Assembly (NCBI GenBank): GCA_015179125.1
Contig: WHVA01000189.1
Coordinates: 1-64,000, forward strand
Length of the DNA: 64,000 nucleotides
DNA from: Gautieria morchelliformis
Taxonomy: Eukaryota > Basidiomycota > Agaricomycetes > Gomphales > Gomphaceae
Reading direction: 5' to 3'
Position 1 is the stretch's first letter; every line of letters starts with the position of its first letter. Below the pieces are notes generated by a model. That model was given only the letters and a program-made list of their open reading frames with translations, did not search any database and was not told the origin of the DNA. The position numbers were made by a program, and so were the translations under genes. This document shows, in pieces, positions 5,791-63,176 of the stretch.

Positions 5791-5796
5791 GGGTGA

Positions 5797-13077: not shown

Positions 13078-15436
13078 TTGATATTTGTTATTCCAGATGC
13101 CATCAACACCGCCCCAATCTCTCAAGCTTCCGTTGATGACGAGCACACCATTATAGCGCCAGTTCCAGTAAATCTCATGAATCACACATTTCGGACCCAG
13201 GATGATTTGAAAAAGCTGATGAAGGGCGAGTTCTCCGGTGCGATATTCGAGAGTAATTCTCTGCTTGAAGAGCGCTGTCGGGCGGATCAAAAAATTGTCG
13301 ACGTTGTCCTATCCAAACTGAAACCTGGCGTGTTCTGGGACAGCCCAACCGAGACTTTCAAGGAATGGCCCCAGCCGCACTGGTCCAGAAAGCGGGCATT
13401 ATGCCGCCGTTGGAGTGGTTACTAACCAGATTTCTGTCCATCTCCTCCCAAAAGCTGCCGAATGGCAATATCCACCGAGGTCTTCAGTTTTACGTGAACG
13501 GTCGGGAAATGGCTGAAGGACTTGACACAGACTCCCCCCTAAAACCAGACCTTGTTGGTTGTCAGTCTGTTGGTGAGAGCCGAGGCTCGAAGCCGAAGTC
13601 TCATGGAACGAGGCTGAAATTTGCGTAGAGGTGAAGAAGAACTGGCCTGGTTTGATCTTGCAGTCAAGCACGTACGTGCGCTGTATGTTCACACACCGAT
13701 TGGATAGACTCTTCGTCACTGTTATCCATTTCAACAACGCAACGATGGGGGGTGCGCTTCGGATTTTATTCTCGCATGGGTCTGGTTGTTACGCCGGAAC
13801 TTGACCTCTCGAAGGAGGGAGGCTTTAAAGGATTTGTCCGCGGAGTGGTTGGGATTAATTCTTGGACCGACACAAACCACGCTGGAATCGATACTACTCG
13901 TACCTCACCTACTCGTACCATCACAGACATTGCGATTCCCAAGAGGGGTATATTCAGATTTCGAAAACACTTTGTGACCGACGTTGCGTTCGCGGACGAG
14001 CAACGCGTGTGTATCTTTTGGTCAAGAAGGGTGCGTTTTGACGGTTTAGAGATCTGGGCCAGTAGTTAACAATTGGGTTTGAAGAGTGCAACCGCCACCG
14101 ATTGGTTCTCCCGCTCAACCTTCGTCCACTCACCGGTATAACTTACGAAGTCACCAACCCCCACGTTCTCAGCCTGGAAAAGAGACTGACGGTCGAGAAC
14201 CCTTGAGGTTGAAGGGAGGCATATCATTTCTCTTGCCGGACACTGTCATTCTGAAGATTCATGGCCATTGAAAACCCATAACGAAGAAGGCATAATGTTT
14301 GGAGCGTTATCGGGCGGATTTGGACTGCCAGACATCCTTGTCTTCATACGCTGTCGAGGATGGAATGGATAAGCTCATACCTGATGACGCAACGTATTGG
14401 CCCGTGTGGTGCACCAGAGCCATACGCCGGGGTTAGGCCTGACGAACGAGTACATATGCGATCTGTTTTTGAGACCCGAGGGACGTCACTGCGAGCTGCA
14501 CAAAGTCCTCGATTGCTCGTGCGTTGCATAGTGCACGCCATGTTGGGTATGTGAACGAAGAGGGCATCGGACATGATTTACCTATAATTGGTGATCGACA
14601 GGGCATTTTTGGGCTGTTTAAGAATGGCTGGTTGCACCGCGACGTAAGCGTCGGGAACGTCATGCTGATGGATGAAGCTGAGCGGCCGCCTGTGGCAGAG
14701 TACGTACCGTCTTCCACATCAGTCCTTTCGTTTTTTTATGTTTGCTTCAGTTTTGCCGTGACTCGAGAAGTTACTAGATGTGTGGGATTCATATGCCGAT
14801 GGGGACCAGGCGATTCGTTGGATGGATCAGAAGCGGGGAATTAGCAAAGCATCGCTCAGTGGGTCTTTAGTTGCTGTGTGCGGCTTGTGATTTACATGGT
14901 TCTAGGGTACGCTGCCTTTCATGTCTCAGGCGCTGAGTGTTGCTTGGGACTCTGGAACGCAAGTTGTGCACCAAGTAATTGATGACCTGGAGTCGTTTAT
15001 ATGGGTTTTATTTTGGTCGATTCTAGAGATTCTGGAGACCAAGGGGGCCACTCGGGCGACTAGAACAGAATTACCGTCAAACGATGCTCTCCGACGAGTT
15101 ACCTGTGTTACAAGCTAGGGGAAGTTTCCTTGATAGGTTAAAGCAACAGGATGCCGTGAAAAATTCTCCAAGGGCTTCAAGCCATTCTCCAAACTCTTGA
15201 TTCAATGGTTAACGCTTTCTCGGGAGACTGCTCTGGAATGGCTGACACCAGACTTCGTTAAGGTGAACACCGATGAGTACACTTTACAGGCCACCAAGCC
15301 ATACGAGCAGTATGTAACGATTGGGCTTGAATCTCTTTCAGACCTGCCAGAGAGTTGGGATTATGTTAATGAGGGGGAAATGACAGGTGAAGAGAGAGTC
15401 GAGGAGGGGGAAATGACAGGTGAAGAGAGAGGATGA
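13078..15436 (+). pseudogene. FunK1-type fungal protein kinase pseudogene
   Basis: A decayed member of the FunK1 family, the large kinase family expanded in Agaricomycetes. Pieces in order: an N-terminal stretch (13078-13425); the family's conserved pre-kinase region near 13600-13750 (EVKKNWPG, then STYVRCMFTHRLDRLFV); the catalytic loop near 14633 (GWLHRDVSVGNVML, with the HRD and Asn needed for catalysis); the LPFMSQ segment near 14911; the DDLESFIWVLFW segment near 14979; and a C-terminal tail up to 15436 that ends in a short repeated GEMTGEER unit. The pieces lie in different frames with several stops and frameshifts, so it cannot make a kinase. Its 3' part (14966-15372) is duplicated at 43110-43525, where it is still open. 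Confidence 0.8.
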
Positions 15437-15647
15437 GCTGGGAAAGACTGCATGTAACACATATAATATTATGAGATCCTGTAGCCACTGTAGGAATTAT
15501 CACAATACTACAATACTCGACGCACGTAATTGGCCAATGAGTACTTTTTGCACTACTAAGTGTTGTTTACCAATATCATCCATCACATTGCAGATAATTT
15601 TCAACATTCTGACAACAAAAAAATTACATTACAGTAGTACAACTGCA

Positions 15648-16853
15648 CTACAGATAGCCACAGTCCTTCATCCACCCTCGCGCATGTCTGCGTGTAATCC
15701 GATCCAGTGCCTCGTAGAGAAACATGAATAGCTCAGCCCTCTCCTTACTTGCAACACATGCACAGAACTCGGCACCATGACGTCTGAGGTGAGCTTTGAT
15801 GAAGGAGAATGATTCTTCGATCGGGTTGAGATCGGGCGAGTACGGCGGAAGATACATCAGTTTGATTCCTCTGCAAATGCAAGATTAGACACTAGTGAAA
15901 ACAGTTTATAATGGTAAAAACCTTTGGGCACATAAGAGTGAAACCTCAGGTATGTGGTGAATGGCGCAGTTATCCATAACAAGAACGTTCTGTGGTGCCA
16001 GGTAAGGGTTCATTACCTCTAAAAGGCCCTTCAGAAACCCAAGGAACTCTGGACCGTCGTATGCCCCTAATTTGATATGGCTATAGATGATTCCATCTTG
16101 TGAGAGCGCCGGAAGGATTGAAAATCTGAGTGGATATTAGCGATACAATAATGGAGGCCCGTGCACAAATCATTACCTTTGGCCCCTTTGGAAACGTGCT
16201 CGCACTCGAGGCCTACATCCCTTGTAAGCCCATCCCATTAGTCTATACGTTGTGCGAAGGTCAATTGCGCTTTCATCTGTGAAAACCAAACGGTCCGGTG
16301 GTTCACTACCAATACGAAACTGGAAAGCAGTCCGTGAGGCTTCACAGCGCTCTGCGGCTGCCCGTGAAAACTGGGTTGGAGACAAATATAAAGGTTGTCA
16401 TTCTTCGAGGATTTAATGACTCACTTTCTTTCTTTGCAAGCCAAGATGTCGAAGCGTCCTCCAGACAGTTGATATACTTACTAAAATACCATGCTGCACC
16501 TCTAGCTCTTCAACAAGCTCATTGAGGTAAAGATCGGGCGAGCGTTCAAGAGGCGCAAGAAGAAACTGTTATAAAATAAAATAAGCTACAGCTAAACACA
16601 GACATGAATTACTTACTTCACTCTGAGCTGAGGTCTTTTTTGACCCATGAGATAGCCGCTTTGGCTCTGCCACGACGTCTCCAACATCCCGCCAGAGTTT
16701 GATTGTGCGTTGAACTACACGTAGTGACATATCGAGGTCAATTGCAATATCGGTTGATTTCTTGTTGAGCTTGAATTTTTGGTGTATAACGCGATCCCGC
16801 AGATCCTTGCTGTACATGTGACGAACAGGTTTAGGGTTGCCAGGGCGAGGCAT
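15648..16853 (-). CDS. Tc1/mariner-type transposase, spliced, apparently intact
   Basis: Five minus-strand exons: 16853-16617, 16565-16425, 16370-16177, 16125-15922 and 15870-15648. The four introns are 51-54 bases, all GT-AG, and all phases agree. They give a 332-residue protein without an internal stop. It begins [13 protein letters not shown] helix-turn-helix lies at about residues 10-60 ([14 protein letters not shown]...[10 protein letters not shown]) and a second, Tc3-like one at about 90-125 ([26 protein letters not shown]). The catalytic triad is D in FTDES, D in VMDNC and E in LNPIEE, with 34 residues between the last two (DD34E). The length is normal for Tc1/mariner. A second, damaged copy is at 51214-52439 with the same flanks, so that copy arose by segmental duplication and not by transposition. 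I could not identify the terminal inverted repeats. The ATG at 16851-16853 is preferred to one further upstream at 16919. Confidence 0.85.
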
Positions 16854-17218
16854 ATGAGCGATGGTGTGGGTAGTACATACAAGGAGAACGGAAGTTCCCG
16901 AAACACACACCCTGACCAAGAATTCTATGACATGAATCGTGCGACAGCATTTGCACCCTTACTCCCAATGCTGAACCCCAACTCAAGTGTAATTTCCAGG
17001 TGTCGAATGGCCACTATCCCGTTTTTATTGGTGAGTTTGCTACTTATGCTTAATTTACATCCTCGCTGAAAGGGCTGTCACGCGTCCCAACTACAAGTCC
17101 ACCATTGTGACTTGAAGCCCCCCTTCTACTCGTACAAGCACGAGCAGTTCCTTCCTGTCGTCCACCCCGCACCCCAACCGACCGCGGCTCCATCACTCCT
17201 ACCGTCAACACCCTCGCG

Positions 17219-17922
17219 ATGACCACCGCCACGTCCTGCGCCTCCACGCGCTACCGCAACACCAACCACGGCGATGCCCTCGCACGCCTCGAGGGCCGCC
17301 AGCCCAGTCGTGTCACGTCCGCGCTCCCATCCCTCTACCAGCTGCCGTTTGGGCCGGTATCCCCCATGTCCCCTGCGTGGAGTCCCCTGGGTGTCAAGGT
17401 GTGTCGACGCCCCCGCACCCTGCTAACCGTATGCCCAGTCTCCTCACGATGAGCTCCGTGTCGTCCGTGCTGCAATCGCACCCGCACCTGCACCCATACC
17501 TGCACCCGTACCTGCACCGGCACCTGCACCGGCACCTGCACCCGCACCTGCACCCGCACCTGCACCTGCACCCGCACCCACACCCGCCGCCACCCGCTCC
17601 CCCACCACCCCGTCCTCCTATACCAGCTCGCCCACCCCAGCACCTCCGCGCCCTCACCCCACCACATACGTGTGCGCCCCCGCGGTTTCCGAGCTCAAGA
17701 ACGTGTCAGGATCAGCGAAGTTGCCTTATGGTGCATTGGCACTCGGTGCGGAAGGGATCAAAGATTTCGGGGCTTATGCTACACAGGAGGAAATCCGACA
17801 TTGAGAATGAACGCCTACCGTCAGATCTCACTGATCCAATGTCAGAAGAAGCTAAGCCCTTCCTCTCCAATCCTATGACACCCTCTTCTGGAGATTCTCC
17901 TGTAGTGGGTTCTCACCATTAG
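17219..17922 (+). other. Possible gene with an Ala/Pro repeat; function unknown
   Basis: A plus-strand locus with an open frame from an ATG at 17219 and a second overlapping frame to 17922. The middle is a low-complexity Ala-Pro or His-Leu-Pro tract, depending on frame. After it comes a better-looking segment, SELKNVSGSAKLPYGALA, then a short tail. The duplicate copy at 62020-62536 keeps a longer C-terminus after the same segment (ending near QIFGAYATQEEIRHRE), so the tail here seems shortened. GT-AG introns are likely upstream (one is plausible at about 17030-17070). I recognise no domain. It may be a remnant. Confidence 0.3.
17474..17590. repeat. 12-bp-type CACCTGCACCCG tandem repeat
   Basis: About nine imperfect units built from CACCTG and CACC(C/G)G. 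In the duplicate at about 62214-62262 the array is contracted to roughly a third of this length. Confidence 0.8.
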
Positions 17923-17929
17923 TACAAAG

Positions 17930-18893
17930 TAGCAAACAAAATTAAAACCTGCATTGAACTACATACAGTAAGCTAAGCTTGACATTGTTCCCCCCTCAGC
18001 ACCCAAAATGCAAAATAGAAAATGCTTGTTTTATTCGGATTTTTTAGTTCTATGCCCTAGCTATGGTCCACATAGCTTCAGATATGAAATTTCAAGCGAA
18101 TCGGAGCGATATCAAGCAAGATATCGTTGTTCGAAGTTTGCGCGCTAAAACGGAAGCAAATCCGACGCGCGCCTTAGGTACTGCAAACGGGTGTAACCCC
18201 CCACGCTGTATGTAACACCCCCACGCTGTATGTGCAAAGAGTCACATTAAACATACCTGTGTTTGGTTAGGGAGAGCGGATCACGAAAACGTGCAAGAGA
18301 CGTGTTTGTCTTAAAGCAGCGGTCCAATAAAGATCCTGAAGCTTGATCTGCCAATTCCTGTGCAGGATGCTATGCCGCAAGCTACTAATAGTACGCATAA
18401 GTAATCCAGCTGAGAACGAGGTTAATTGAGGCGTATCATGTCATATGTAAACCTGGCGCCCTGCTATTCTTTCCCACTCACATTATGCGACTCAGAGGAT
18501 ATCGATTGCTGCACCGCTTGTGTACGGCACGCGGCCATAAATATACTACTACTTACTATACATATGACTCGTCAGGAACCCTCGAAATTAATAGTATATA
18601 TTATTGTACAGACAATTCGTATGACGATAGCTCGCGACGTACGAACAAGTTGAAAGGAGGAGCCGATCAAGGAGCCGAGAAACAAACTGGCAAGGGAAAG
18701 GAATCCCAGCCGGCCGACTTGATGTGATTTGCGTGCCAGTTTCTCTCGCTATAGGTACCAACATGTGTTTTCCACGTTTTCATAATCGGGAGCGTCTGTT
18801 GCACTTGCGCGAGGTTTATAGAGTCGACAACCTCAAGAGTCCTGCTAGTCAATACGTTCAAAATCTTTTATAACAAGCAAATACTCTCTCAAA
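17930..18893. other. Intergenic stretch without a supported gene
   Basis: The first 260 bases belong to the segmental duplication and are not obviously coding. A doublet of CCCCCACGCTGTATG sits at about 18200-18231. The remainder holds only short frames without domain signals. A TATA-like TTTTATAAC at about 18866 lies just before the gene at 18894. Confidence 0.6.
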
Positions 18894-20147
18894 ATGCTCT
18901 ATCTGCTGAACCAGGTTCACCGCTTCGTCAGCAAAGTCTACTACTCCCTATTCAGGCCAGACGTCCCTCGACCTACCTTCCTGTTCGGGGCTACTAGTGT
19001 CCCGATATTTTTGACTGCCCGGGAAGGCGTCACCAACCCCATTGTCCACAACACGGTCCACGTCGTTGTGGTTGAAGTGGAGTTCAGAAAGATGCCCTCA
19101 GCACCATTCCATGAATTCCTTGTCTTCAAAGTTGAGGGTTCCCGTTCGTTTCAAAATGCAATCATCATCGTAGACAGATTTGTCGCGGGAACGGTTACTG
19201 ACGAGGAGTTATGGGCCCATGCCATCCATGCCGACACCGACGAACCGGAGCTGAAATATGTAGCTTCCCCCCCTGCTGCCTACCGTCAGGATACTATCAT
19301 TGATCGCCCTGCCTCTCTACTCGGTCAATCTCCAATACTAGTCCATGACAGCCCCTCGGAGGGCATTCTTACATTCATCAATGCACCCAATCACTTTTAT
19401 ATGAAGAGGTTTAGGAAAGGCAGTTTTGTATGCAGGAAATTCAGGCCTTGGAACCCGACATTCACCGTGGCCGAACTCCTGACTTTGAGCCACGCCGTAC
19501 ATCACCAAAATAGATCCTACCATCTCCTGCAACACCAGTGTTACTGGTTTGCGGATGTCCTCTATAATGCCGCGAAGGAGAGGTGCGGTAAAGTATATGA
19601 GACCATTCTCAAACCTCGCATGTCACCAGGAGATTTCGGGATCGTGCAGGTCATACGCCACAGGCCTGAAACCCATTCCGATGTACTTCAGAGGCATAAG
19701 GAGGCGTGGGTGACCGCCGAACAGAGAATCAAGGATATAGACATCGTGAGTTTTGACTTTGTCTTTGCACGTGTTCGCTTGTCTGAAGCATAGGTTACGA
19801 AACAGTATAGGCGAGCGTGTAAAGAAGCCAGAGAAGCCATGCGGAAGGTTGCGCCACTGAGGGCCGAGGCTGAGGCACGGGGGGCTGAGGCTGAGGCACA
19901 GAGGGCTGAGGCTGAGGCACAGAGGGCTAAGGCTAGGGCATGGAGGGCTAAGGATGAGGCACGGTGGGCTAAGGCTAGAGAGAGGGCTGAGGCTGATGCA
20001 CGGAGGGCTGAGGAGGATGCACGGAGGGCGGGGGAGGATACACGGAGGGCTTGGGAGGATGCACTGAGGGCTTGGGATGAGGGAATCAAAGCATTGGAAC
20101 GGCGGGACGAGATAGACAAGGCCTATACAGCTTCATGGGGTAGTTAA
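18894..20147 (+). CDS. Unknown protein: possible papain-like fold plus coiled-coil tail
   Basis: Two exons (18894-19745 and 19794-20147) around a 48-base GT-AG intron, phase 0, give 401 residues with no stop. Residues 1-284 form a globular part. Its HAVHHQN stretch is followed by YHLLQHQCYWFADVLYNA, which resembles the His and the Cys-x-x-Phe of LRAT-like and NlpC/P60 (permuted papain-fold) enzymes. If so, the Cys in HQCYWF would be the nucleophile. Residues from about 300 to 390 are Ala/Glu/Arg-rich with a repeating RAEAEAQ-type unit and should form a long coiled coil. I do not recognise the family by name and the enzyme idea is inference. The start is the first ATG of the frame and follows a TATA-like element. 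The gene stands alone, and both exons look intact. Confidence 0.72.
19857..20080 (+). repeat. In-frame tandem repeat coding for the coiled coil
   Basis: Imperfect units of the type gctgaggctgaggcacaga encode the AEAEAQR pattern. Unit edges drift (GAGGATGCACGGAGGGC in later units), so the array is old enough to have diverged but keeps its reading frame. Confidence 0.75.
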
Positions 20148-20659
20148 TCAGATATGTGTAGGTTTCATGACCAGCTCTGCCTGCTGTTTCCTCATGCTGA
20201 ACTTCGATCTCACACAGATGCCCCTCTTCCCTTCGCTTTCATAATGCTTTAGCGCGCTTTCATCTTCGTTGTCGTCCAAACTTGTTTTGTCGTTAGCTCC
20301 GCTGTCTTGTCCGATATACCATGTCCCAGCCACACCCCACCGAGAGCATTGAATCATTGGAACGTTGGAATTATGCGACTACCCCATTTTTGCATGCTTG
20401 AAAGCCGTAAGAGCAAAATGGACGCCCATTGCCTGCTGCAGAGGACACTCGTCCTGAGAGCCTATGGCGGTATCTCGGCCAATTCAGCCATTCCATTGAG
20501 TACCTCACACCCCTAGAAAGCGTCTCGTATTGGACTTTATGGGAAGTACTGTGTTTATCCTTCCTTACGCGTTTTGGAGCACGTGAAACCTATTCACCCC
20601 ATGACCTTACATGGCAGCCTCCCGCTGTTATATTTTCCCCGAGACCGTTTTGAGGTGGT
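20148..20659. other. No supported gene
   Basis: Only short frames without recognisable motifs are present between the coiled-coil gene and the first phospholipase D fragment. I see no repeat or structure that stands out. Confidence 0.5.
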
Positions 20660-21110: not shown

Positions 21111-21589
21111 GCTCTACGACGGTAATGGATGGACTCGCATGTTTTGATTAATTCGTATTCCGCGCCACTGCAGTATTCTGGCCATTTTTAATTCGGCTGT
21201 GACGTGCTTGCTTGGATATATCAGTAACGCATTTTGTGGATGGTGTATATATGGAATATATCTACTTACTGATTGTTGAATATGGTTCTGCCGAGGGATC
21301 CAAGTTGGTGGAGGCCGGTCGAATACCGAATTCGACATAGCTCTTCCCATGCACGCGCGTGATGGTGGTTTGATGCGTGGACTCCATGCGGGATTGAAGT
21401 ATGCGCCCTGAATGTCAACATAGAGTCACAGAAGATTGCGACCCTGGTGGGCAAGATGAAACCTGGAATCTATACGATAGTTAGGCAATCAAAGAGAACG
21501 ACACGTGGACAGACTGCAGCACGAGTAAGAGCAAGAAACACACCACGTCAGTGCACTATGCCCTTGACGATCATTCAGTCCGAAAATCG
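21111..21589. other. Phospholipase D downstream sequence, then non-coding
   Basis: 21111-21300 matches the sequence after the other two phospholipase D fragments (28150-28330, 23340-23480) and, inverted, 62930-63113. Nothing recognisable follows up to 21589. Confidence 0.6.
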
Positions 21590-23330: not shown

Positions 23331-23759
23331 GAACTGGAAGTGTTTGAATCGGCCACTGCAGTATTCCGGTCATTTTTAATTCTGCTGTGACATGCTTTCT
23401 TGGATATATCTCTAACGCATTTTTGTGGATGGTGTAAACACGGAATATATAATATCGTTACTGATTGAGTCTGTCGAGGGATCTGTCCGCGTTTCAGTTA
23501 GTGGAGAACTTACAAATGTCTCTCACTTGTAGGAGTCAGCCATTGTCACAATAATTCCGGGCCCTGAGGTCTTCAGGGCTTAGAGCTCAGGTCTTAAAGC
23601 TCGTTTTCTGGTGTAAAATTGTTATTGCGACCATTTTTGATGGGAAGGAGGGCTATTTTTGAGCTCCGCCGGAGCTAAGATTAGAAAGTCTGAGCCTACT
23701 TCGTACGGTAGTGCTTAGGCTGCCGTCTGAGCCGCTATAGCTCCGCTGCAATACGCGCA
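23331..23759. other. Spacer upstream of the kinase-like gene
   Basis: Non-coding. It matches 28161-28574 over most of its length and so belongs to the duplicated unit. It includes the phospholipase D downstream sequence and the promoter side of the kinase-like gene. Confidence 0.65.
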
Positions 23760-37840: not shown

Positions 37841-37896
37841 CTCATACCACTGCAGGGCAGGACGAATTAGCTTTGCTGAAGTTTTCACTATACAGT

Positions 37897-39951: not shown

Positions 39952-39959
39952 TGGGCTAG

Positions 39960-44596: not shown

Positions 44597-44642
44597 AATG
44601 AGGGGGAAATGACAGGTGAAGAGAGAGGATGAGCTGGGAAAG

Positions 44643-49400: not shown

Positions 49401-50440
49401 CCTTCCCGAGCTTGCTCGAAATGTCGGGCTGGCTCTTGTTGTTTGAAGAGTTGTTGTTGGAACCCTTGCCGCTGTTGTTAGTCTTGTTGCGGTTCTTATT
49501 GTTATTGGAACCGCTGGAGGACTTGTTGTTGTTAGTGGCATTGCTGCTGGACTGATTAGCGGCACGTGCAGGCTGGGAGCTACGACCATTGACCATGGCG
49601 TCGTATTCCTTACGCTCCCAGTAACGGCTGTCGCATTCCAGCGCAAAGTTCCTAAGCTCGGCGAGGCTGTGGAATCGAGGGAAGTGAAGTAAGTCGTCCT
49701 TGATTCTTGTGGCCAAGCCCTTGTAGGCGAAGTGTCGGAGGGCCGCATCGTTCCACTGAGTCCGAGTCGAAGCTCGGGCGAAGTCGATAAAGAATCGTGC
49801 GGCCTTGTGGTGCTCTTTCATGACGATCACCTCAAGGTCGATCTCGGCTTGGGCGGCATTGTCGTATGGGCTGAAGTTGAGCTCGAGTTCGGCCTTGAAG
49901 CTGTCCCACCCCTTGAGCCAGTCTGGCTCGGGCTGGACTTTGCTGAGGATCGCCAGCTCGAAGTACTGTAGAGCTGAGCCGGACAGGTAAGAAATAGCAT
50001 ACTGCACCTTCGAGGCCCCAGTCTTGAAAGCTGTGGGACAATCTCAAAAGTTGAGCACACATTGAAGGAAGAAGGTGCAAAGCTTGGCCTGGTCAGTAAC
50101 GTCATAACTATCCGGTTCCTTGACCTTGGCTCGTGCTTCAGACTTGCGAGGTTTCGCAAGCTTTATGAACACTCGACGCATAAGCTCATTGTCCTTGAGG
50201 TCACCGAGGTCCTCGGGCGGCAGGTTGGGGAGGTCCCGATCGTTTTCAGAACCCCCAGAGCCATCACCTGGATCACCTGAAGGGTCACTGGGGTCAGCCC
50301 TACCTTTGCCTTTGTTACTAGGCTTGGCGGGGTCTGCGAGGGGTATCCCTGGGGACGGTGGTGAATTGTCGGGGGCTTCAGAGAAGCGTCGTTGTTCTGA
50401 TGTACCCCCGAAGGGTGCGGGAACGAGTTATCATGGACAT
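46340..50440 (-). pseudogene. Gypsy B gag and pol regions (fossil)
   Basis: Minus-strand coding remains. The gag core (FRDRPT-like start; SGSALQYFELAIL; ALECDSRYWERKEYD) has a zinc knuckle CLLCGTKGHIIKDC. A protease region follows (VALVDCGSSDCFI near 49050, VLGHNWLTRYNP near 48200), then reverse transcriptase ([11 protein letters not shown] near 47280) and RNase H (TDASDYALAAILS near 46830). It is broken at several points, and an LTR is inserted in the protease region. Confidence 0.85.
48349..48966. repeat. Solo LTR-like insertion inside Gypsy B
   Basis: About 618 bases with ends TGTTGTGA and TCATAACA, a good inverted pair. They interrupt the protease region of Gypsy B. The flanking five bases (agagt, gattc) do not match clearly. 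There are no coding features. Confidence 0.65.
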
Positions 50441-50484
50441 AGTGAAAAAAAGGGATACGTAGGGTGTAAGCAGTCTGAAAATAC

Positions 50485-51027
50485 TGTTACGATACAATCC
50501 GTCGTAAGGTTGACCGAGGTCGGGAGCGAAACCCGAGGTAAGGTCCGAGATTACGGGGCGAGGTTTGGATGGGGAAGTCGGAGAGGGACTTGGCTTCAGC
50601 TTATGTGCTGCGCCGACCCTACGCATGAGTCCCAACTTTGGAGGCAAACGAATAAGAGGCGAGGCTTAGAAACTAGCTAAGGATCGAAGGGATATGATAG
50701 TTGATTTTCAGACTGAGGAGTAGGAATGCATCCAAGGGGGGTTATATACGAGTGAGGGTACGAGTCAGGGGCAAACATATTAGTGGAGGTCAGGGCGAGG
50801 TCAGGAGGCCAAGGTCAGGGCGAGGTAATATTCGAATGATGCGTGATGGAGCGGAATCAGTAACTAAGGGGATACGGGCATGGGATCAAGGTTGGATATG
50901 AGCTCAAGCTCGGGCTCGGGCTCGGGCACAGATAAGGATCATATGTACTCGGGCACGACTATCACAAGGCTCGGGCTCGGAAGAAGGTTTTACCAGTAAG
51001 TAACCAGCCAAAGGCCGGGTTCTTACA
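50485..51027 (-). repeat. Gypsy B 5' LTR
   Basis: 543 bases, TGTAAGAACC to GTAACA on the minus strand, next to the GAAAG target duplication at 51028-51032. Confidence 0.92.
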
Positions 51028-51213
51028 GAAAGACCGCATGTAATGCATGACATATAATATTATGAGATCCTGTAGCCACTGTAGGAAGAGCGGGCACTTA
51101 CAATGAGTACTTTTTGCACTACTAAGTGTTGTTTACCAATATCATCCATCACATTGCAGATAATTTTCAACATTCTGACAACAAAAAAATTACATTACAG
51201 TAGTACAACTGCA

Positions 51214-52439
51214 CTACAGATAGCCACAGTCCTTCATCCACCCTTGGCCATGTCTGCGTGTAATCCGATCCAGTGCCTTGTAGAGAAACATGAATAGCTC
51301 AGCCCTCTCCTTACTTGCAACACATGCACGGAACTCTGCACCATGATGTCTGAGGTGAGCTTTGATGAAGGAGAATGATTCTTCGATCGGGTTGAGATCG
51401 GGCAAGTATGGCGGAAGATACATCAGTTTGATTCCTCTGCAAATGCAAGATTAGACACTAGTGAAAACAGTTTATAATGGTAAAAACCTTTGGGCACATA
51501 AGAGTGAGACCTCAGGTATGTGGTGAATAGTGCAGTTATCCATAACAAGAACACTCTGTGGTGCCGGGTAAGGGTTCATTACCTCTAAAAGGCCCTTCAG
51601 AAACACAAGGAACTCTGCACCGTTGTATGCCCCGAATTTGATATGGCTATAGATGATTCCATCTTGTGAGAGCGCCATAAGGATTCAAAATCTGAGTGGA
51701 TATTAGCGATACAATAATGGAGGCCCATGCACAAATCGTTACCTTTCGCCCCTTTGGAAACGTGCTCGCACTCGAGGCCTACATCCCTTGTAAGCCCATC
51801 CCATTAGTCTATACGTTGTGCGAAGGTCAATTGCGCTTTCATCTGTGAAAACCAAATGGTCCAGTGGTTGACTACCAATACGAAACTGGAAAGCAATCTG
51901 CGAGGCTTAACAGCGCTCTGCGAGGCTTAACAGCGCTCTGCGGCTGCCCGTGAAAGCTGGATTGGAGACAAATATAAAGGTTGTCATTCTTCGAGGATTT
52001 AATGACTCACTTTCTTTCTTTGCAAGCCGACATGTCGAAGCGTCCTCCAGACAGTTGATATACTTACTAAAATACCATGCTGCACCTCTAGCTCTTCGAC
52101 AAGCTCATTGAGGCAAAGATCAGGCGAGCATTCAAGAAACGCAAGAAGAAACTGTTATAAAATAAAATAAGCTACAGCTAAACACAGACATGAATTACTT
52201 ACTTCACTCTGAGCTGAGGTCATTTTTGACCCATGAGATAGCTGCTTTGGCTCTGCCACAACGTCTCCAACATCCCGCCAGAGTTTGATTGTGTGTTGAA
52301 CTACACGTAGTGACATATCGAGGTCAATTGCAATATCGGTTGATTTCTTGTTGAGCTTGAATTTTTGGTGTATAACACAATCCCGCAGATCCTTGCTGTA
52401 CATGTGACGAACAGGTTTAGGGTTGCCAGGGCGAGGCAT
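51214..52439 (-). pseudogene. Second copy of the Tc1/mariner transposase gene, damaged
   Basis: The same five-exon gene as 15648-16853, sharing both flanks. The third exon contains a tandem duplication of about 20 bases (gcgaggcttaacagcgctct twice near 51900-51935) with a TAA introduced in each unit. Several residues differ, such as [12 protein letters not shown] for [12 protein letters not shown]. The splice signals are mostly kept. It cannot make a full transposase. Confidence 0.8.
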
Positions 52440-52519
52440 ATGAGCGATGGTGTGGGTAGTACATACAAGGAGAATGGAAGTTCCCGAAACACACACCCTG
52501 ACCAAGAATTCTATGACAT

Positions 52520-52860
52520 GAATTGTGCGACAGCATTTTCACCCTTTCTCCCAATGCTGAACCCCAACTCAAGTGTAATTTTCAGGTGTCGAATGGCCAC
52601 TATCCCGTTTTTATTGGTGAGTTTGCTACTTATGCTTACTTTACATCCTCACTGAAAGGGCTGTCATGCATCCCAACTACAAGTCCACCATTGTGACTTG
52701 AAGCGCCCCTTCTACTCGTACAAGCACGAGCAGTTCCTTCCTGTCGTCCACCCCACCCCAACCGACCGCGGCTCCATCACTCCTACCGTCAACACCCTCG
52801 TGATGACCACCGCCACGTCCCGTGCCTCCACGTGCTACCACAACACCAACCACGGCGACG
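52520..52860 (+). other. 5' part of the Ala/Pro locus copy, cut by Copia D
   Basis: This matches 16934-17268 of the first copy. The locus is interrupted by the Copia element at 52861, and its remainder lies at 62015-62536. Confidence 0.7.
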
Positions 52861-53341
52861 TGTAGTAGACAGGAATTATAGGCAGTAGGTATGGACTTGT
52901 TGCTCAAAAGAATAGACTAGAAATCAATTCACTCTCTCAGTGAATTTAGTTGTCACTATAAATATATTATACACTACCTAGAAATCAATTCACTACAGAA
53001 GATTTCTGGGTCAATGAATCGAAAGAACACTAGACTAATTTACTTGCCTCTCTCAGTGAATTTAGTTGTCACTGAGAGAGGGGGAAATGTGTTTCACTAC
53101 GCATGTACTACTACCCGGCCCTTTAGCGCCCAAGGGCTAGTCGAAGTCATTTCAGACTCCGCTGGGTGCAGCCGCTTGTGAAAGTAGAAATAACAAGATA
53201 AAATGGAGAGGTAGGGAGTGAGTGTAAAATTTCGAAAATAACCAGAGAAATAGGAACAATATGAGAAGAAATTGAGAAACCATACAACAAATTGAATATA
53301 TTATGCTTGATTTTGGTGCAGGAGCATAAATGCACCCAACA
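52861..53341 (-). repeat. Copia D 3' LTR
   Basis: 481 bases, TGTAGTAGACAGG to CACCCAACA on the plus strand. The pyrimidine run CACCCCCTCAAG just inside it (53342-53353) is the polypurine tract of the minus-strand element. Confidence 0.93.
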
Positions 53342-53354
53342 CACCCCCTCAAGC

Positions 53355-56300
53355 TTAATATATTCCGATTTTCTCGTTGAGGATTTTCACTCTAGGACTT
53401 GGAAGTCCTTTAGTGAGGATATCTGCCAACATTTGTTCGGTTGGCAAATAAACGAGCTTGGCTTGTTGATTTTTGATTATATCTCGAAGGAAATATAATC
53501 TGATGTCGAAATGTTTGGTTCTCGTGTGTTGTTGAGTGCCATACGTGATTGCAATGGCTGATTGATTGTCTGAATAAACTTGGATGGGTCTGTTCAGCGG
53601 TTGGAATATTTCAGAGATAAAATGGCGCATCCAGAGAGCCTCTTTGCCTGCATGGGTCAGAGCAACGAATTCGGCTTCAGTTGATGAGAGGGCTACTATC
53701 GATTGTTTCTGGAAACTCCATGAAACAGTGCCCCCATCAATCTGAAATAAGTATGCCGAATATGAACGCCTATGACTCTGTGAACCCCAATCCGCATCTG
53801 AATACCCCATCAAGCCGTCTCGATTTTTTCCAAGTGTGAGCTTGTAATGCTTCGTGCCTTTCAAATATTTGAAGACACGTTTTACTGCATTCCAATGTGT
53901 GCCACCTGGATTTTCGAGGAATTGTGAGAGCAATGACACCGCAAATGCAATGTCAGGTCGAGTGGCTACAGCTGCCCACATCAGTGATCCTATGGCTTGC
54001 CTGTATGGAAACTTCAACATGGCTTTCTTGCCTCTCTCTGTAGAAGGACATTGGTCTTTAGATAATTTAATGGCTGGATCAAGAGGCGTAGCATAAGTAT
54101 TTGCATCTTCGAGATTGATTTTTTTGATGATCTTCTCGATGTATGCAGGTTGTGAAATTGCAATGGTTTTCTTCTGCCAGTCTCTTTCGATTTTGAGGTT
54201 CAATACCCAATGAATCTCGCCTAGATCTTTCATACTGAAGACCTGAGCAAGATCCCGTTTGACTTCATCCAGGACTGACTGATTCTCAGCTGTGATGGTA
54301 AGGTTGTCCACAGCTGTTGCAATAATCACATGCCCCTTTCCGCCACGTCTATAAAATACAGCCCCATCTGTGGCTGACGTAGTGAATCCTAACTTGTGGA
54401 ATTCACCACTTAGACGTTTGTACCATTCTCTTCCAGATTGTTTGAGGCAGTAGAGTGCTTTCTTCAAAAGTAGCACTTCGCCTTTGTCTCCTGACTCATA
54501 TCCATACGGCTGCTTCATGTAAATAGGTTCAGGCAACGTAGCATTGAGGTATGCATAGTCCACGTCCATTTGATGAATAGGCCAGTCATTCCTAGCAGCA
54601 ATGGCGCATATGATCCTTAGGGAGGATAACCGAGCAACAGGTGAGTATGTCTCATCATAGTCAATTCCAAACTTCTGCGTGAAGCCTTGGGCGACCATTC
54701 TCGATTTAGGTACTATTGGTTTCCCTTCTGGATTACGCTTCCAAAGGTAGACCCATTTGTTACCGACAATGTTGGCTCCAGGAGGTGGTTTGGTTCGTTC
54801 CCACACTCCCTTGTCGATTAGGGCCTCATACTCTTTGTCCATTGATTTCTTCCACATAGGATTATTCAGAGCTTCGTCTGCATTGCTAGGTTCAATTTGA
54901 CTCAAATCCGGCGCCTTGTTATGGTTTTGACCGTCAGTTAGAAACGCACTGATGGCACACTCATAGTTACTGATGCCATCAATCTCGGAGGATAATTCTT
55001 GGTCGAATAAATTTTCTTTATGGTCCTCAATGTCCTCGTAAGCTAGCGTAGTCATTTGTGTGCCAGCTTGTCTCTGAGTTTGAGATCTTGTTACGGGACC
55101 TGATGGGGCCGGCTGCACTTGTTGTTGACGGATCCTTTCGCTTCTCCTTATCGGTTCAGCTTCTCGAGGTCTGTCATCAACTCCCTGAATAGGTTGCAGC
55201 TCTTCAAGATATTCCTCTGGTGCACTTTCATCAATTTCTTCGATCTTTGCCTCTTTGCTGACTAAGCGACCGGGCACAGGCACTGATGCCGGAATGGCCT
55301 TCTTCTCCTCTTTAGACGTAGGTAGCTTAGATTCCTCAATAGAAATGATTGGGACCTTTCCCTTCTTCATCTCTGAATCAAACACAACATTCCGCTCGAC
55401 AGAAACTTTGTGCGAGTCAGGCCAATAAACATAATGACCATGACTCTGCGCAGAAATTCCTATCCACCGAGCTCTCTTGGCACGAGCTGCCAATTTATCT
55501 CCCTGAGTGACCTTGACATTGACTTCGGTTCCCCACGTATGAATGTCTTTGAGATTCGGTTTCTCATGGTGAATCATTTCGTAAGGCGTTTTATCCGGTA
55601 GAGCTCTTGTATGCGTCCTGTTCCTAAGATAATTGGCATGCTGTATCGCATAGCCCCATAATATCTTAGGAAGGCCTGATTCTAACAGCATGGCACGAGT
55701 TCTCTCAGTGAGAGTTCGGTTCAGACGTTCGGCAACACCATTAGACTCTGGTGTGTCGTGTACCGTCAACCGATGCTTCGTACCTTGTTTGGCCAGGTGC
55801 TGTTCAAATTCAGAGCTCGTATACTCGCCCCCTCGGTCAGAAACAAGTGCCTTGATGTGCACATTCCTCTGTCGAAGCATTAGAGCCTCGTAGAGTTTGT
55901 ACTTCGAGAATGCTTCCGATTTGTTCGCCATGAGATAGATCACCGATTCCCTTGAGTAATCATCGATAAAAGAGACATAATATGACTTTTTATCGATCGT
56001 GAGGTGTCTTGCAGGTCCCCAGACATCAGAATAAATTCTGTCACCGAATTTTGATGTTCGGTCTCTGGGTTCTCAAGGAAGAGGTTTGCGTGCAATCTTG
56101 GCTTGAATACACGCATCACAGACAATTCTATCGCCTGTGGAGCTCAGTTCAATGCCCAATATCATGCCATGATTTAATAGATGTTGTAGGGACTCCTGTG
56201 AGATGTGCCCCATTTTTTGATGAATTTCCATGGCAGACAAACACATATGGGCTTGAGCACTTGGTGACTGGAGGTCTAGTCGATATAAACCATTGACCTT

Positions 56301-57430
56301 CGGTGCTTGCATCAATACCTTTCCAGCAGTGTTAGATATTGTGCATTTCTGGCCACCGAGTCGAATATTGTAGCCAGCATCATCGCACCGACCGATCGAG
56401 AGGAGGGTAGCAGCAATTTTTGGAGCATAATATGTATCTTGCAATGTGACTTCTACTGTTTTATCTCCAACCTTATTGGATAATACGAGCAGTCCTGAAC
56501 TGAAGGCATCAAAAGTGCCTTTGTTGGCTGCTCGGATAGTCTTCGGCTGTGAGAATTGACAGTAGTTCCTCAATAAATTTTTGTGAGGAGTCATATGCGA
56601 TGTTGTTCTGGTGTCGAGTATGACTATAACTCCTGAGGATGTGCTCAGATTGAAATTAGAGCACTCGTCGAAATTGGTGAAGGCAAGATGCCCATCATCA
56701 CTTTCCTCAGAAGAGGACTCTTCTTCGGCAACATTCGCTTTTGCTTTACCCTTCTTCTTCTTTTTGCTTTTGGCTTTAGTCTTCTGACGTGGTCCTTGAC
56801 CTTCTTTTCCACCTCCTTTAGCCCAGCAATTTTCGATGGAGTGTCCAGGCTTTTTGCAGTTGGTGCATACATGCGCCTTCTGCGCCTTCTGGTCCTTCTT
56901 AGTAGATGAACCAATAAACACCTGCTCTTCTTGCGGGAGTGTTTTCTTCCTGTCATACTGAGCCTTTAGTACCCTAATAATATTATCAGGGACCAATGGC
57001 ATCCCGCATTCTTCAAGCGAAGTGGTAAGGGCGTTCATGACAGCCTCATAGGATGGTGGAAGTGACGCAAGGATGATGTCCATGAATTCTTCTTCAGAAA
57101 CTCTGGCTCCCATCTCATTAAGACGAGCATATAGGTCTTGGGCCTTGTCCAAATGATCTCTCAAGTCTCCATCCTCAGGACATCTCATACTACGGAGTTG
57201 TCTCTGCAGGCTGGTGAGGACCATCTTGGGCCTTTTGGTCATTTCATTGACCAATGCATCCCAAGTCTCTTTTGCTGTCTTTTGCTTCTGTAGCATCAGG
57301 GCTAATAACACTGACACTGAGACGATGATTTGGGTCTTGGCTTGTCCTTCTCTAGCAAGGTATCTCTCCAGCTTCTCCTCAGCCTTATCCATCTGAGTTT
57401 CCTCAGCTTCTGTAAGAATATGGCCTGGGG
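53355..57430 (-). pseudogene. Copia D gag-pol coding region (fossil)
   Basis: From 57430 downwards: the gag part with KTAKETWDALVNEM and one zinc knuckle CTNCKKPGHSIENC; a protease-like region VILDTRTTSHMTPHK; the gag-pre-integrase part HQKMGHISQESLQHLL; integrase with SDRGGEYTSSEFEQHL; reverse transcriptase with SRMVAQGFTQKFGIDYDETY; RNase H with LSSTEAEFVALTHAGKEAL. The first 83 codons of gag (MGPGDTSEKLLGVEKL) lie beyond the CACTA element at 61280-61528. Only a small number of breaks is visible. Confidence 0.88.
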
Positions 57431-57480
57431 CACTGTGGATAGCGAATCCATTGAAACCTAGTGGGTTTACCCACGGGGTT
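57431..57480. repeat. CACTA left terminal inverted repeat
   Basis: CACTGTGG, then ATAGCGAATCCATTGAA, CCTA and ACCCAC in the same order as the inverted right end at 61306-61355. Confidence 0.8.
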
Positions 57481-58689
57481 TCTGTTTTCAGTGGGTACAT
57501 CATTGAAAAAGCCCCCATTGAAACAAACCAATGAAATTTGAGCTTACCGGGTTTCCTAGAAAAAACCAATGAAATTATTCAAGTGGTTAGACCAGTAGAA
57601 TTTTCAGTGGCTTTGTCACTTAGTTTCCGTGCCATAGGAACTACATATTCAATGTAATTATCATGAGAATTTCAGTGCTCGAAGGCCTGGATTGCCGTTG
57701 TTCGGACACTTAAAATTTTTCAAGATAGCTCATGGAGCACTCAGTGAAATCCAGTGAATTAATATATATATTTCAGGGCAAATATACTGAAGTTTCCATA
57801 TATGTATCAATGAATTTCCATGCTTGAGGTGCCGGAATGCTACTGCGGCCCCAAGTGACAACTGCTTTTGAGATACAGCACTAAGTATACACTGTAGAAA
57901 TAATAAGAGCTATATTTCAGTTCCGCTTGCACTACAGCTAAATTACAGTACCGACTTGTACTGAAATTTAGGTACAGGAAAAATTGCAACGTCCAAATGA
58001 CGAATGAGATTTTTTTTTATCTAATCATGATCAATCTCCAGAAGTCAACTAAGTACTAGTGCAAGTGTCTGCCATGGGGTATCGTGAGTTGCGCTAATAC
58101 CTAGTAGGCAAGATAATTGATTTCCAGCGGAAGGCGAAGGGCACAGGACGAGTCGGAGTACAACCTGGCTGACTAATGCAAGAACGAATGTATGCACGCT
58201 CTTCATCCCTCGCTCTCGCCATCACCACCACGGTCAGCCCCTCAACTCGCTGCTTCCCGAATATCTGTATGCTCCCGCGGCCGCGCTCCACTTCTCTGTT
58301 TCCCTTGTCTCCGAGTCATGCCACCAGCCCGTGGATATCTCAGATGGATGGCCCGAGGGTCCGCTTGTTTGTTTCCAGGGATCACACTACTTGCTGCTTA
58401 CTGTATAGACCGTCTCGGGCTTTCGTAAATCAAGTGATGTGATGGATGCAACAGGCTCACACTGCTTGACAAAGACAAGGTGCACTGCCAAACAGCGCGG
58501 CATGCTCCACTCGCAGCCCTACTAGTACGGCGCCACCTTACATGGACTCGGCCCACAGCGTCATTTCATCTACACCGTAACATCAAGATGATTTCATGCC
58601 TCGCCTCAGCTGGAGCAGCCTGAGTCTGCGCTTCTGTTCGATTTGTCATCCATCCTTCCGCAGAACCTTTCCCATTCCGATTCCCTCTG

Positions 58690-59030
58690 AGCTGAGTCGA
58701 TGCGCAGGCCCAGCCCAGGGTTAGGCCCTCCTCCAATATTTCCGACAAGCATGTCAATGAGGTACGTTAGTATTTTGAGAACTAACAGAACCGGTCAGCA
58801 CCTTTCTGTGAAAGCCTATCGCGGCGGCGGGTGCGGGTGTGGGCACGAGCTCGAACTCAGCACGCTCAGGCGCGACCGCGCTCACGACAATGACGTCGAG
58901 CAGTGCGCTGATGGCTGCAGATGTGAGGCTCGACCTCGAGGAGCGCACACTGCACCTGGCGGTCGAGGAGACGTTTGAGGAGATCGGGCGGCGGTGGATG
59001 CTGTGGGCAGCGAACGGGCGCGCCATACGT
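58690..59030 (+). other. Captured gene fragment inside the CACTA element
   Basis: A probable exon starts after a 36-base intron-like GTACGT...GGTCAG stretch at 58762-58797. One frame encodes a sensible helical segment, DVRLDLEERTLHLAVEETF followed by EEIGRRWMLWAANGRAI, then a GTGTAT donor-like site. I do not recognise the source gene. A further P/S-rich frame runs from 58994 to 59728. Confidence 0.4.
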
Positions 59031-60379
59031 GTATCATTCGTGTTTCATACCCCACCCCGCTGCTCAATCCCCCTTTTGATGTCCCGTCTCGTGACCGTTT
59101 CTATCAACAAGAGCCCGACCATGATCGTGACCATTCCGCCGTCTCGCCAGCCTCCTCCAAACAGGATGCTTGCGACTACGTTCCGCCCCGTCTTGCCTAT
59201 GTCTACGCGGGCACGGCCATACTCCGAACCATAACCTCTCCTCGACGGATTCCACACGGTCCCGTGCCCTCTACTGGGAGCCATGCCGACAGGCGTCCTG
59301 CGCACCTCACGTATGGGCCCGCCCACGGCCTCGACCTCGCCCTCCAAGCCAACATGGACGCGGACATGGACCTGGACACGGCGTCCGTCAAGACTGCACC
59401 AGGGCCGAGCCTGCCCATCATATCCACGCGGTCGCGTGCCCCACTCTCACCCACGCCTCCGGCTCCACGAGGCGCCAGCCCACATGCTTCTGAATCACGT
59501 GCCCACGTGTCCCCCTCAGGCATGGGCTCCAGCCTGAATGAGAACGCACATGTCCGGGAGATGCGGGCTCAGACCCTGAACCGGCCGCAGGATAGGGCGC
59601 AACGCCACACACACACACTGAATGGAAGACAGCATGGTCTGGGGTATAAAAGCACTCCATGGGGGAATAAGGACGGTACCGATTCCCTCGGCGACGACAC
59701 GATGACCGTGACGAATGGGGGTGAGTGAAAGGAAAAGTGAAAGGAAGGTCGTGTGAGAGGAAAGTAGAAGGAGGGCGTGTGAAAGGAACAATCAAAGGAA
59801 CAGCCAAACGAACAGTCAAATGAAAGGTTGGGTCCAGTGGGCATAATAAGCACAGTTGAGAAAACAGGGAGCAGAGGAGCATGTGCCGCCGTCTGACCTC
59901 ATCTCACTCACAAACGAATTCGGTATTGACGGTTAACGACGATTTACCGTGACGGCTCAAGGAAGGAATGACACTACCGATAGCCTCGCTCGAGCGGAGA
60001 GGGCGTGTGTGAGCTACCCTGTCGGGCGAGGGGTAGCGAAATGAATTGCTGGGTGTGTATACCGGTAGGGGTGTGGGGACAGCGGCTCAGAGGTTTCGTC
60101 CTCCTTCATCATTCGTGCGCGGCATTGTCTTACCGTTTCATCGTCCCATGTCATTCTCTCACGCTTCCATCTCATGTTTCCATCTCATTCTCATCCTATC
60201 GTCCTCTCATCACATCGTCCCACCACGTCATTCTCCCTTGTCTCGGAGTTCACGCGGGTGCGACCGCGAGCGCTCGATCCGAGTCATCCAACTCATCATT
60301 GGCTCGTGTTGTCCCCTCACTGTGTCGTTTCATTCTCTCATGTGGCCTGCATCACATCCTCTAGCTCCAGAGACACCCA

Positions 60380-60840
60380 CCAGCACCATTTAACCTTCCT
60401 CAACGCCAAGGGCCTAGACCTTCATGGTGACAAAAGACAGGCGGACGTGAAGCAGCTGTCGATGCCGTTGGCTGGAGGAGAATGGTGTGGATTTATTTGA
60501 CGACGCCACTGCCGTGAGTGTTCCTTCGTCATGTTTTTTGTGTGCTTCGTGCTCTCATTCTCGGGGGGTGTTCTTCTTCTCTGGGGGGGAAGTCGACTCG
60601 TGCCACCCACATTGGGCGGCGGCGTTTCTTTTCTTTTTCATGCTGCATTGTTTCTGTCTCGTGTCAAGGTGGACGGTTTCAGAGTGGGGGCGCGAGTGCA
60701 TCCTGATTGTGGACTCAAGACATGTTGTGCCGGAGAATTGGATGCGGCATGGGAGCTGGCGGAATCCCCCAAGGTAGCGATCATTGAGCATGAGTCAGGT
60801 GCGTGCGGCCGACGGGGGGGGGTTGCTAGCCGCGACTGAT
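60380..60840 (+). other. Second captured gene fragment inside the CACTA element
   Basis: A frame ending EENGVDLFDDATA is followed by a GTGAGT donor near 60513. A second coding-looking piece, DGFRVGARVHPDCGLKTCC then AGELDAAWELAESPKVAI, is followed by a GTGCGT donor near 60798. The spacing fits two exons of an unidentified host gene carried by the transposon. Confidence 0.35.
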
Positions 60841-61533
60841 TCTGTTTTTCTTTTTGGTACCAGCTGTTATGCAGCTCATCTACTTTTTCTTGTGTCTTGG
60901 ATTTCTCTCATGTCTTGCATCGCCAAGCACAGATGCACACCGTTCCCAGGTTTCATGGATTGAAATGCGGTATTTCAGTGATTTTCACCTTATGTTTCAT
61001 CTGTATTTTCCCTTGTATATATTGATTTATGACTTGAAATAATGGGGCATTCAGTTGCTGCATCTCTGAAATGTGGTGATAGAACCACGGGGTCGTAAGT
61101 GACTATTTCATGGGAACCCACTGGTCGTCGATTCGAAATGCCTGGTTCAATCCATTGGTCTTCCGTTGTAGGCTCCCTGAATACACATGAGTCAACCCCT
61201 GAAACCAACTCATTGAAACGAAACTTTTTCCACTGAAACCGATTGATTGAATTTTCAACGGGTTCTATTGGTATTTACACTAGCTATAATGGTTTATATA
61301 CTGAATCCTCAGTGGGTCCACCCTATAGGATTCATTGGGTTGACTACCCACAGTGGGGGGCATAACTGGAGGATCAGGAGGTCGAGTGACTCTCCCTTCT
61401 ACATGCTTGAGTAGATTTTTGGACCCGAAATAGCTGATGAGAGTGGCTCGCCACAATGGCCAATTACTTCCATCAGTAGCAAGCTTCTCAACACCCAATA
61501 GCTTCTCAGAAGTGTCTCCGGGGCCCATAACCC

Positions 61534-62014
61534 TGTAGTAGACAGGAATTATAGGCAGTAGGTATGGACTTGTTGCTCAAAAGAATAGACTAGAAATCAA
61601 TTCACTCTCTCAGTGAATTTAGTTGTCACTATAAATATATTATACACTACCTAGAAATCAATTCACTACAGAAGATTTCTGGGTCAATGAATCGAAAGAA
61701 CATTAGACTAATTTACTTGCCTCTCTCAGTGAATTTAGTTGTCACTGAGAGAGGGGGAAATGTGTTTCACTACGCATGTACTACTACCCGGCCCTTTAGC
61801 GCCCAAGGGCTAGTCGAAGTCATTTCAGACTCCGCTGGGTGCAACCGCTTGTGAAAGTAGAAATAACAAGATAAAATGGAGAGGTAGGGAGTGAGTGTAA
61901 AATTTCGAAAATAACCAGAGAAATAGGAACAATATGAGATGAAATTGAGAAACCATACAACAAATTGAATATATTATGCTTGATTTTGGTGCAGGAGCAT
62001 AAATGCACCCAACA
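61534..62014 (-). repeat. Copia D 5' LTR
   Basis: 481 bases, the partner of 52861-53341, differing at three positions by eye. Confidence 0.93.
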
Positions 62015-62019
62015 CGACG

Positions 62020-62536
62020 CCCTCGCACGCCTCAAGGGCTGCCAGCCCAGTTGCGTCACGTCCGCGCTCCCGTCCCTCTACCGGCTGCCGTTTGGGCCGG
62101 TATCCCCCATGTCCCCTGCATGGACTCCCCTGGGTGTCAAGGTGTGTCGACGCCCCCGCACCCTGCTAACTGTACACCCAGTCTCCTCACGATGAGCTCC
62201 GTGTCGTCCATGCTGCACCCGCACCTGCACCTGCACCTGCACCCACACCGGCACCCGCCGTCGCCCGCTCCCCCACCACCCTGTCCTCCTACACCAGCTC
62301 TCCCACCCCAGCACCTCCGCACCCCTCACCCCACTGCATACGTGTGTGCCCCCGTGGTTTCCGAGCTCAAGAACGTGTCAGGATCGGCGAAGTTGCCTTA
62401 TGGTGCATTGGCACTCGGTGCGGAAGCGATCAAAGATGCTATTATGAACTTTGATTATGCATATGTTCCACGTTATATGATCCCTCAGATTTTCGGGGCT
62501 TATGCTACACAGGAGGAAATCCGACATCGAGAATGA
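62020..62536 (+). other. 3' part of the Ala/Pro locus copy
   Basis: The continuation of the locus cut by Copia D. A frame from 62003 crosses the LTR edge and ends at 62536. It contains the contracted CACCTG array (62214-62262), the SELKNVSGSAKLPYGALAL segment and a tail with NFDYAYVPRYMIPQIFG that is missing from the first copy. Function unknown. Confidence 0.4.
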
Positions 62537-62907
62537 ACGCCTACTGTCACATCTCACTGATCCAACGTCAGAAGAAGCTAAGCCCTTCCTCTCCAATCCT
62601 ACAACACCCTCTTCTGGAGATTCTCCTGTAGTGGGTTCTCACCATTAGTACAAAGTAGCAAACAAAATTAAAACCTGCATTGAACTACATACAGTATGCT
62701 AAGCTTGCCCTCAGCACCCAAAATGAAAAATAAAAAATGCTTGTTTTATTTGGATTTTTTAGTTCTATGCCCTAGCTATGGTCCACATACCTTCAGAATT
62801 TCAAGCGAATCGGAGCGATATCAAGCAAGATATCGTTGTTCGAAGTTTGCGCGCTAAAACGGAAGCAAATCCGACGCGCGCCTTAGGTACTGCAAACGGG
62901 TGTAATT

Positions 62908-63113: not shown

Positions 63114-63156
63114 ATGCGAGGCATACGTTCCTCCTTTCATGAATGATAGGTGGGTA

Positions 63157-63173: not shown

Positions 63174-63176
63174 GGT

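Follow-up and report, generated by a model that had tools for sequence, protein, structure and literature searches.

Two stretches of one transposon family in the window

The DNA analysed here (the window, 64,000 nucleotides of contig WHVA01000189.1 of Gautieria morchelliformis) contains a compact stretch of about 3.2 kb, at 14966-18194, which recurs further right in a form expanded to almost 20 kb. A first-pass annotation had described the pair as one duplicated segment that preserves the states before and after a series of nested insertions. We found instead that both stretches are very probably independently inserted, left-truncated copies of a Tc1/mariner transposon family, referred to as E here. 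When positions 14001-19200 were compared with 42001-64000 by BLASTN, the shared pieces came in the same order and on the same strand: 14966-15372 with 43110-43525 (91.4% identity), 15404-15446 with 44600-44642 (100%), 15442-17274 with 51028-52858 (93.4%), 17272-17765 with 62015-62437 (78.6%, a minisatellite region), and 17765-18196 with 62491-62905 (93.5%). The matched stretches annotated earlier are real, whereas position 14966 is not a natural boundary; the homology stops at 18196 and 62905.

At their junctions, the nested insertions of the expanded copy were confirmed to carry target duplications: AATGA for repeat X, GAAAG for the retrotransposon Gypsy B, and CGACG for the retrotransposon Copia D. 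As annotated, Copia D itself contains a CACTA-like unit; this has CACTGTGG ends and is flanked by a GGG duplication. The compact copy is indeed uninterrupted at the sites of X, Gypsy B, and Copia D, its Copia site reading CGATG, one base off the CGACG of the expanded copy. The long terminal repeats (LTRs) of Gypsy B end in TGTCAC...TTACA and those of Copia D in TGTAGT...CAACA, and two open frames tested in the CACTA-like unit gave no Pfam match. After landing, the expanded copy would have received X, Gypsy B, and Copia D, the last of which would then have received the CACTA-like unit. The compact copy would have received a solo-LTR-like insert, and its left side would have been cut by a Gypsy-B-like element. 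The site of the LTR-like insert is uninterrupted at 13 of the 28 E loci compared, the aligned stretch starting to the right of the site at the other 15. All features are collected in Table 1.

Table 1 Features of the two copies of E and of the sequences inserted in them (positions in the window)
Feature	Position	Strand	Details and basis
Compact copy, further left part (E 1893-2585)	10265-10956	+	Left side cut by Gypsy-B-like LTR 9727-10264
LTR-like insert in compact copy, 1425 bp	10957-12381		TGTTAG...AAAACA, GTCAA duplicated; junctions
Compact copy, main part	12382-18196	+	2581-8279 of the complete copy on contig C610; alignment to that copy
FunK1-type kinase gene in compact copy	13058-15433	+	Stretches 13058-14038 and 14921-15433; Pkinase_fungal match on copy L015
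Putative transposase gene of E, Tc1 type	15648-16853	-	Five exons, 332 amino acids, DD34E, DDE_3, open here; gene reading and Pfam
Right terminal inverted repeat	17568-18196	+	GC-rich minisatellite on inner side, ends GGGTGTAA; 629 bp in the C610 copy, limits here approximate
Expanded copy, piece 1 (E 5139-5545)	43110-43525	+	BLASTN; left neighbor another X repeat ending at 43109
Repeat X, 1071 bp	43526-44596	+	AATGA duplicated; 40 genome places scored of 1192 candidates, this one included
Expanded copy, piece 2	44597-44642	+	BLASTN
Gypsy B LTR retrotransposon	44643-51027	-	GAAAG duplicated, LTRs 3.9% apart; RVT_1 and RNase H over cut-off, gag just below
Expanded copy, piece 3	51028-52860	+	With broken transposase gene; BLASTN
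Copia D LTR retrotransposon	52861-62019	-	CGACG duplicated, LTRs 0.6% apart; RVT_2, Retrotran_gag_2
CACTA-like unit within Copia D	57431-61355		CACTGTGG ends, 3-bp GGG duplication; 12/15 terminal bases match
Expanded copy, piece 4	62020-62905	+	Includes right terminal inverted repeat; BLASTN

The X repeat on the left of the expanded copy (41327-43109, interrupted at 42019-42724) ends exactly where E starts, at 43110. The right flank (62906-63120) is a dispersed repeat with opposite-strand matches at 21134-21300, 23352-23515, and 28186-28381; these lie 3-10 kb from the compact copy, and their divergence at the junction is too great for any of them to represent an empty site. A tandem array of short repeats follows at 63613-63975, as seen by self-comparison.

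Transposon E, its ends and its probable transposase

We searched the window's own assembly (122 Mb, 1113 contigs) with the sequence 14966-18194. All scored places (40 of 407 candidates) match. In 17, counting the window, no more than 10 of the 3229 query bases are uncovered, and the other 16 of these near-full-length places are 94-98% identical to the query. Further loci carry the homology leftward to 12382 and beyond, and a complete copy on contig C610 measures 8279 bp, with 629-bp inverted repeats that are 98.3% identical. Two readings, one that took the truncation at 12382 as the end of E and one that took the 5' truncation as a sign of a long interspersed element, were dropped after complete copies with inverted repeats had been found. 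The termini of E are TTACACCC…GGGTGTAA, and its terminal 25 bases, with two mismatches allowed, occur at 226 ends genome-wide (110 + 116) versus 0 + 0 for a reversed-pattern control. Right ends are sharp, reading GTGTAA at 21 of the 24 loci listed, and the sequence past them is unlike between loci, except in haplotype duplicates.

Filled sites of E have the form TTA-CACCC...GGGTG-TAA. Among 15 end pairs, 12 show no match at all outside TTACACCC...GGGTGTAA, and 3 share 2 bp there. The flanks of these 15 insertions were joined with TTAA, and 11 of the joined sequences were searched for, with 40 candidates scored per search. Empty sites reading TTAA, 100% identical over 84 bp, were found for 3 of the 11 (contigs C156, C158, and C141). 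The C158 insertion sits in a repeat, of which two listed copies (L018 and L022) have TTAA at the insertion point. Since the empty site is TTAA and the filled one TTA...TAA, insertion duplicates TA, which is a mark of the Tc1/mariner superfamily.

Some loci of E appear more than once in the assembly. L007 and L009 (contigs C838 and C1045) are the same insertion in two contigs, 99.4% identical. At another locus, E lies in opposite orientations on C985 (L010 and L065) and C610 (L029 and L015), although the 400 bp to either side of it are 100% identical in the two contigs; this flip is either an assembly error or, between haplotypes, an inversion via the long inverted repeats.

The transposase gene, whose exon limits were set by eye, encodes the putative catalytic residues D158, D242, and E277, with 34 residues separating the last two, and its product matches DDE_3 with an E value of 1.8e-27. 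A search of solved structures up to an E value of 0.1 gave one weak match, to the Sleeping Beauty transposase (E = 0.036). The frame is open in 21 of 29 copies, counting the compact window copy that served as reference, and is broken in the expanded copy, where the aligned reading has 8 stops and a length that is not a multiple of 3. The first-pass annotation had taken this gene for a separate Tc1 insertion. Between 15300 and 17500, however, the sole inverted repeat of at least 14 nucleotides is a 16-nucleotide pair, 111 nucleotides apart, within the gene, so nothing marks a separate Tc1 unit. The most plausible reading is that the gene encodes the transposase of E itself, mainly because homologous transposases sit between similar ends in related elements.

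Three related transposase loci, about 44-61% identical by stretch, were fetched (on contigs C551, C295, and C770). Each lies within an element whose inverted repeats begin TTACAGCTGTT and are long: 458 bp (L066, on C551), at least 423 bp (L067, on C295), and 477 bp at 95.8% identity (C770). The exact pattern TTACAGCTG marks 22 ends in the genome versus 0 for the control. At L067 (2912-9936), about 15 bp of the left flank recur directly after the right end, followed by TTACA again, as if by a further element or end.

A complete E measures ~8.3 kb, with repeats of ~630 bp. One of its strands encodes the spliced DD34E transposase, and the opposite strand has a FunK1-type kinase gene along with other open frames. 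By the standard Tc1/mariner route, the encoded transposase would excise E at its ends and paste it into TTAA, and the kinase gene would ride along with the moving element.

Relationship of the two copies and alternative readings

The divergence comparison suggested earlier was carried out. The two window copies differ by 4.1% over 2808 aligned bases (minisatellite and 46-bp piece omitted), which can be set beside LTR divergences (K) of 0.040 for Gypsy B and 0.006 for Copia D, or about 0.020 and 0.003 per lineage. Over their longest shared piece they differ by 4.2%, and 98.7% of the 300 copy pairs from 25 rows are closer to each other than these two. The 25-row tree leaves out 4 of the 28 loci, whose match was incomplete, and L001, which is the window itself. 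In this tree, the compact copy falls in a 14-row clade with support of 100/99, and the expanded copy lies outside it. A tree joining the two as sisters was rejected (approximately unbiased test, p = 1.8e-5). The two window copies are not sisters.

This bears directly on the earlier reading, by which Tc1 entered a 3.2-kb host segment, the segment was duplicated in the region, and one copy then gathered insertions. In its favor, a single window holds both copies, alike in order and orientation, and the compact copy's sites are uninterrupted. Against it, the unit is a transposon dispersed genome-wide, and the adjoining sequences of the two copies are unlike: no match was found between the right flanks 18197-20200 and 62906-64000, nor between 10265-14965 on the compact side and 35501-43109. 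Together with the rejected sister tree and the closeness of nearly all other copy pairs, this makes a segmental duplication very improbable. Less likely still is a mis-assembly, in which the two loci would be one region wrongly joined. The assembly is in 1113 contigs and contains haplotype duplicates, but the divergence between the copies, their differing adjoining sequences and tree positions, and the correct 5-bp duplication at each insert all speak against it. The alternative with somewhat more to recommend it, unlikely as it too is, holds that E is a non-autonomous composite, in which the Tc1-type gene is an old nested insertion whose own ends have been lost and another TA-targeting transposase moves E. 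E is large for the superfamily by the size usually expected, DDE_3 domains are plentiful in the genome (151 matches among 150 scored of 454 candidates), and the transposase's ratio of nonsynonymous to synonymous differences (pN/pS) is not far below 1. On the other side stand the frame that is open in most copies, the lack of internal inverted repeats fitting a Tc1 unit, and the three related loci fetched, all of which repeat the plan of a homologous transposase between similar long ends.

Several observations weigh against our reading of both stretches as insertions of an autonomous transposon. Movement of E by the encoded transposase is inferred rather than directly seen. Measured against the window copy, the transposase has a pN/pS of 0.77, and divergence is lower in the introns of its gene than in the exons (1.5% versus 2.2%), so selection on the transposase is not clearly shown. 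Helix-turn-helix models (HTH_32, HTH_33, HTH_Tnp_Tc3_2, and others) match it below the Pfam cut-offs, and the DDE_3 model also matches in 3 of 14 control genomes. For 8 of the 11 joined flanks, the search turned up no empty site among the 40 candidates scored for each, which were filled by three repeated targets, and of six related copies of the C158 target listed, two read TTAA and four, more diverged, differ. The complete C610 copy has a 5-bp TACTC match outside its ends, unlike the 15 other end pairs; a duplication outside TTA...TAA was considered and rejected, and TACTC was taken as chance because 12 of those 15 pairs have no match and 3 a 2-bp match only. Given that the assembly holds haplotype duplicates (L007/L009, L010/L015), the copy counts of E are inflated. 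Well-supported inner branches number only 3 of 22 in the tree. Our reading also does not account for the loss of E's left part in the expanded copy, whose left edge coincides exactly with the end of an X repeat and has no matching 5-bp duplication at the 43109/43110 boundary.

The uninterrupted sites of the compact copy had been offered as dating evidence. We scored a site as uninterrupted when an alignment passed at least 25 bases beyond both sides of the insertion site. By this measure, the sites of X, Gypsy B, and Copia D are read through at all 28 loci (which include L001, that is, the window itself with its compact copy, and two haplotype-duplicate pairs), while the expanded copy fails all three. 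The uninterrupted state is therefore the family norm, the sites give no date relative to a duplication, and the compact copy is not a "before" state; it has insertions of its own and a shorter terminal branch than the expanded copy (0.010 versus 0.026, midpoint root). By branch length, the compact copy looks like the younger of the two. The higher LTR divergence of Gypsy B shows that it is older than Copia D, and this part of the proposed order of events stands, while the duplication step does not; X falls outside LTR-based dating. With equal rates, the order would be that the expanded E landed, Gypsy B entered it, the compact E landed, Copia D entered the expanded copy, and the CACTA-like unit came last. 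Equal rates are an assumption on which the placing by branch length depends, and this also tells against the scheme. The earlier sequence observation was thus right and its interpretation mostly wrong, the lesson being that when one copy of a mobile element is uninterrupted, it does not thereby record what its interrupted paralogue once looked like.

Cargo of E and comparison with known systems

The kinase gene is broken in the compact copy, with 14 and 3 stops when each of its two stretches is read from its start. On copy L015, PF17667 scores 31.7 bits on one stretch (cut-off 24.1) and 16.6 bits, below the cut-off, on the other; stronger FunK1 matches, up to 208 bits, occur elsewhere in the genome, and the Pkinase_fungal model also matches in 4 of 14 control genomes, over the cut-off in 2. 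Selection on the kinase was considered and rejected, its pN/pS being 0.98 and 1.01 for the two stretches (13 copies each; rows identical to or incompletely covering the reference were omitted, as were gapped codons and those with multiple changes). Given that the stretches change at about the neutral rate, the kinase gene may be a passenger of E. The long stretch is open in 4 of 13 copies and the other in 11 of 13. The contrast between the long stretch and the transposase (open in 20 of 28 copies, reference omitted; Fisher p = 0.02) is only a hint, because the copies are related, the references differ (L015 versus the window), and the second stretch shows no such contrast. Three further frames of E are open in 7 of 14 copies (pN/pS 0.35), 15 of 16 (1.78), and 6 of 6 (0.53).

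In the related family, a WD40 stretch is present in two copies (L066 5884-6345 and L067 3686-4147; 96.8% protein identity). Against solved structures, the top two whole-sequence scores are other many-repeat WD40 proteins, followed by a run of alpha-COP chains, and we read the fragment as alpha-COP-like. An accessory protein common to E and the related family is not claimed: it was suggested by one weak BLASTP match (E = 7e-4), but when the comparison was repeated, 3 of 200 shuffled sequences scored as high. It is conceivable, if rather doubtful, that E and its relatives represent a lineage of large fungal Tc1/mariner transposons that carry host-type genes as a rule, enclosed by inverted repeats of unusual length, a FunK1-type kinase in E and an alpha-COP-like WD40 fragment in the relative. 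If so, FunK1 kinase copies would have in these elements one means of spreading through fungal genomes.

Judged by its predicted genes and ends, E is a Tc1/mariner transposon of unusual size that includes a kinase gene. It shares with the IS630-Tc1-mariner superfamily a DD34E transposase with DDE_3, inverted repeats, and the TA duplication. Typical members are roughly 1-2.5 kb long with short repeats, whereas E has 8.3 kb, 629-bp repeats, other genes, and a transposase gene in five exons, and the E sites seen are TTAA rather than any TA. The TTAA target recalls piggyBac, which duplicates all four bases; E adds TA only, a four-base duplication was not found at its sites, and its transposase matches DDE_3. 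Pack-TYPE (Pack-TIR) elements are likewise DNA transposons with host coding sequence, as is the relative of E with the WD40 fragment; an abstract describes them as non-autonomous (PMC8903248, PMC8277862), whereas E encodes a mostly open transposase. E is not described in the titles or abstract openings of the literature searched, most subscription journals lying outside its scope.

For a kinase gene in this superfamily, the nearest parallel known to us is the TBE elements of the ciliate Oxytricha (PMC4724952), the likeness being the presence of a kinase gene. In that account, ANT is the sequence that TBE1 duplicates, and its 78-bp repeat includes telomeric sequence, whereas E duplicates TA at TTAA and has TTACACCC ends, and neither an ANT duplication nor telomere-like ends were found in E. 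Our analysis brings out a large Tc1/mariner element with a kinase and a mostly open transposase, together with relatives of similar build, and raises the question of whether FunK1 kinases are spread in fungi by Tc1/mariner elements. A second question that E raises, also open for TBE in ciliates, is whether elements of this type benefit from a kinase gene. Should the suggested fungal lineage be real, it would parallel the kinase-carrying Tc1/mariner TBE elements of ciliates.

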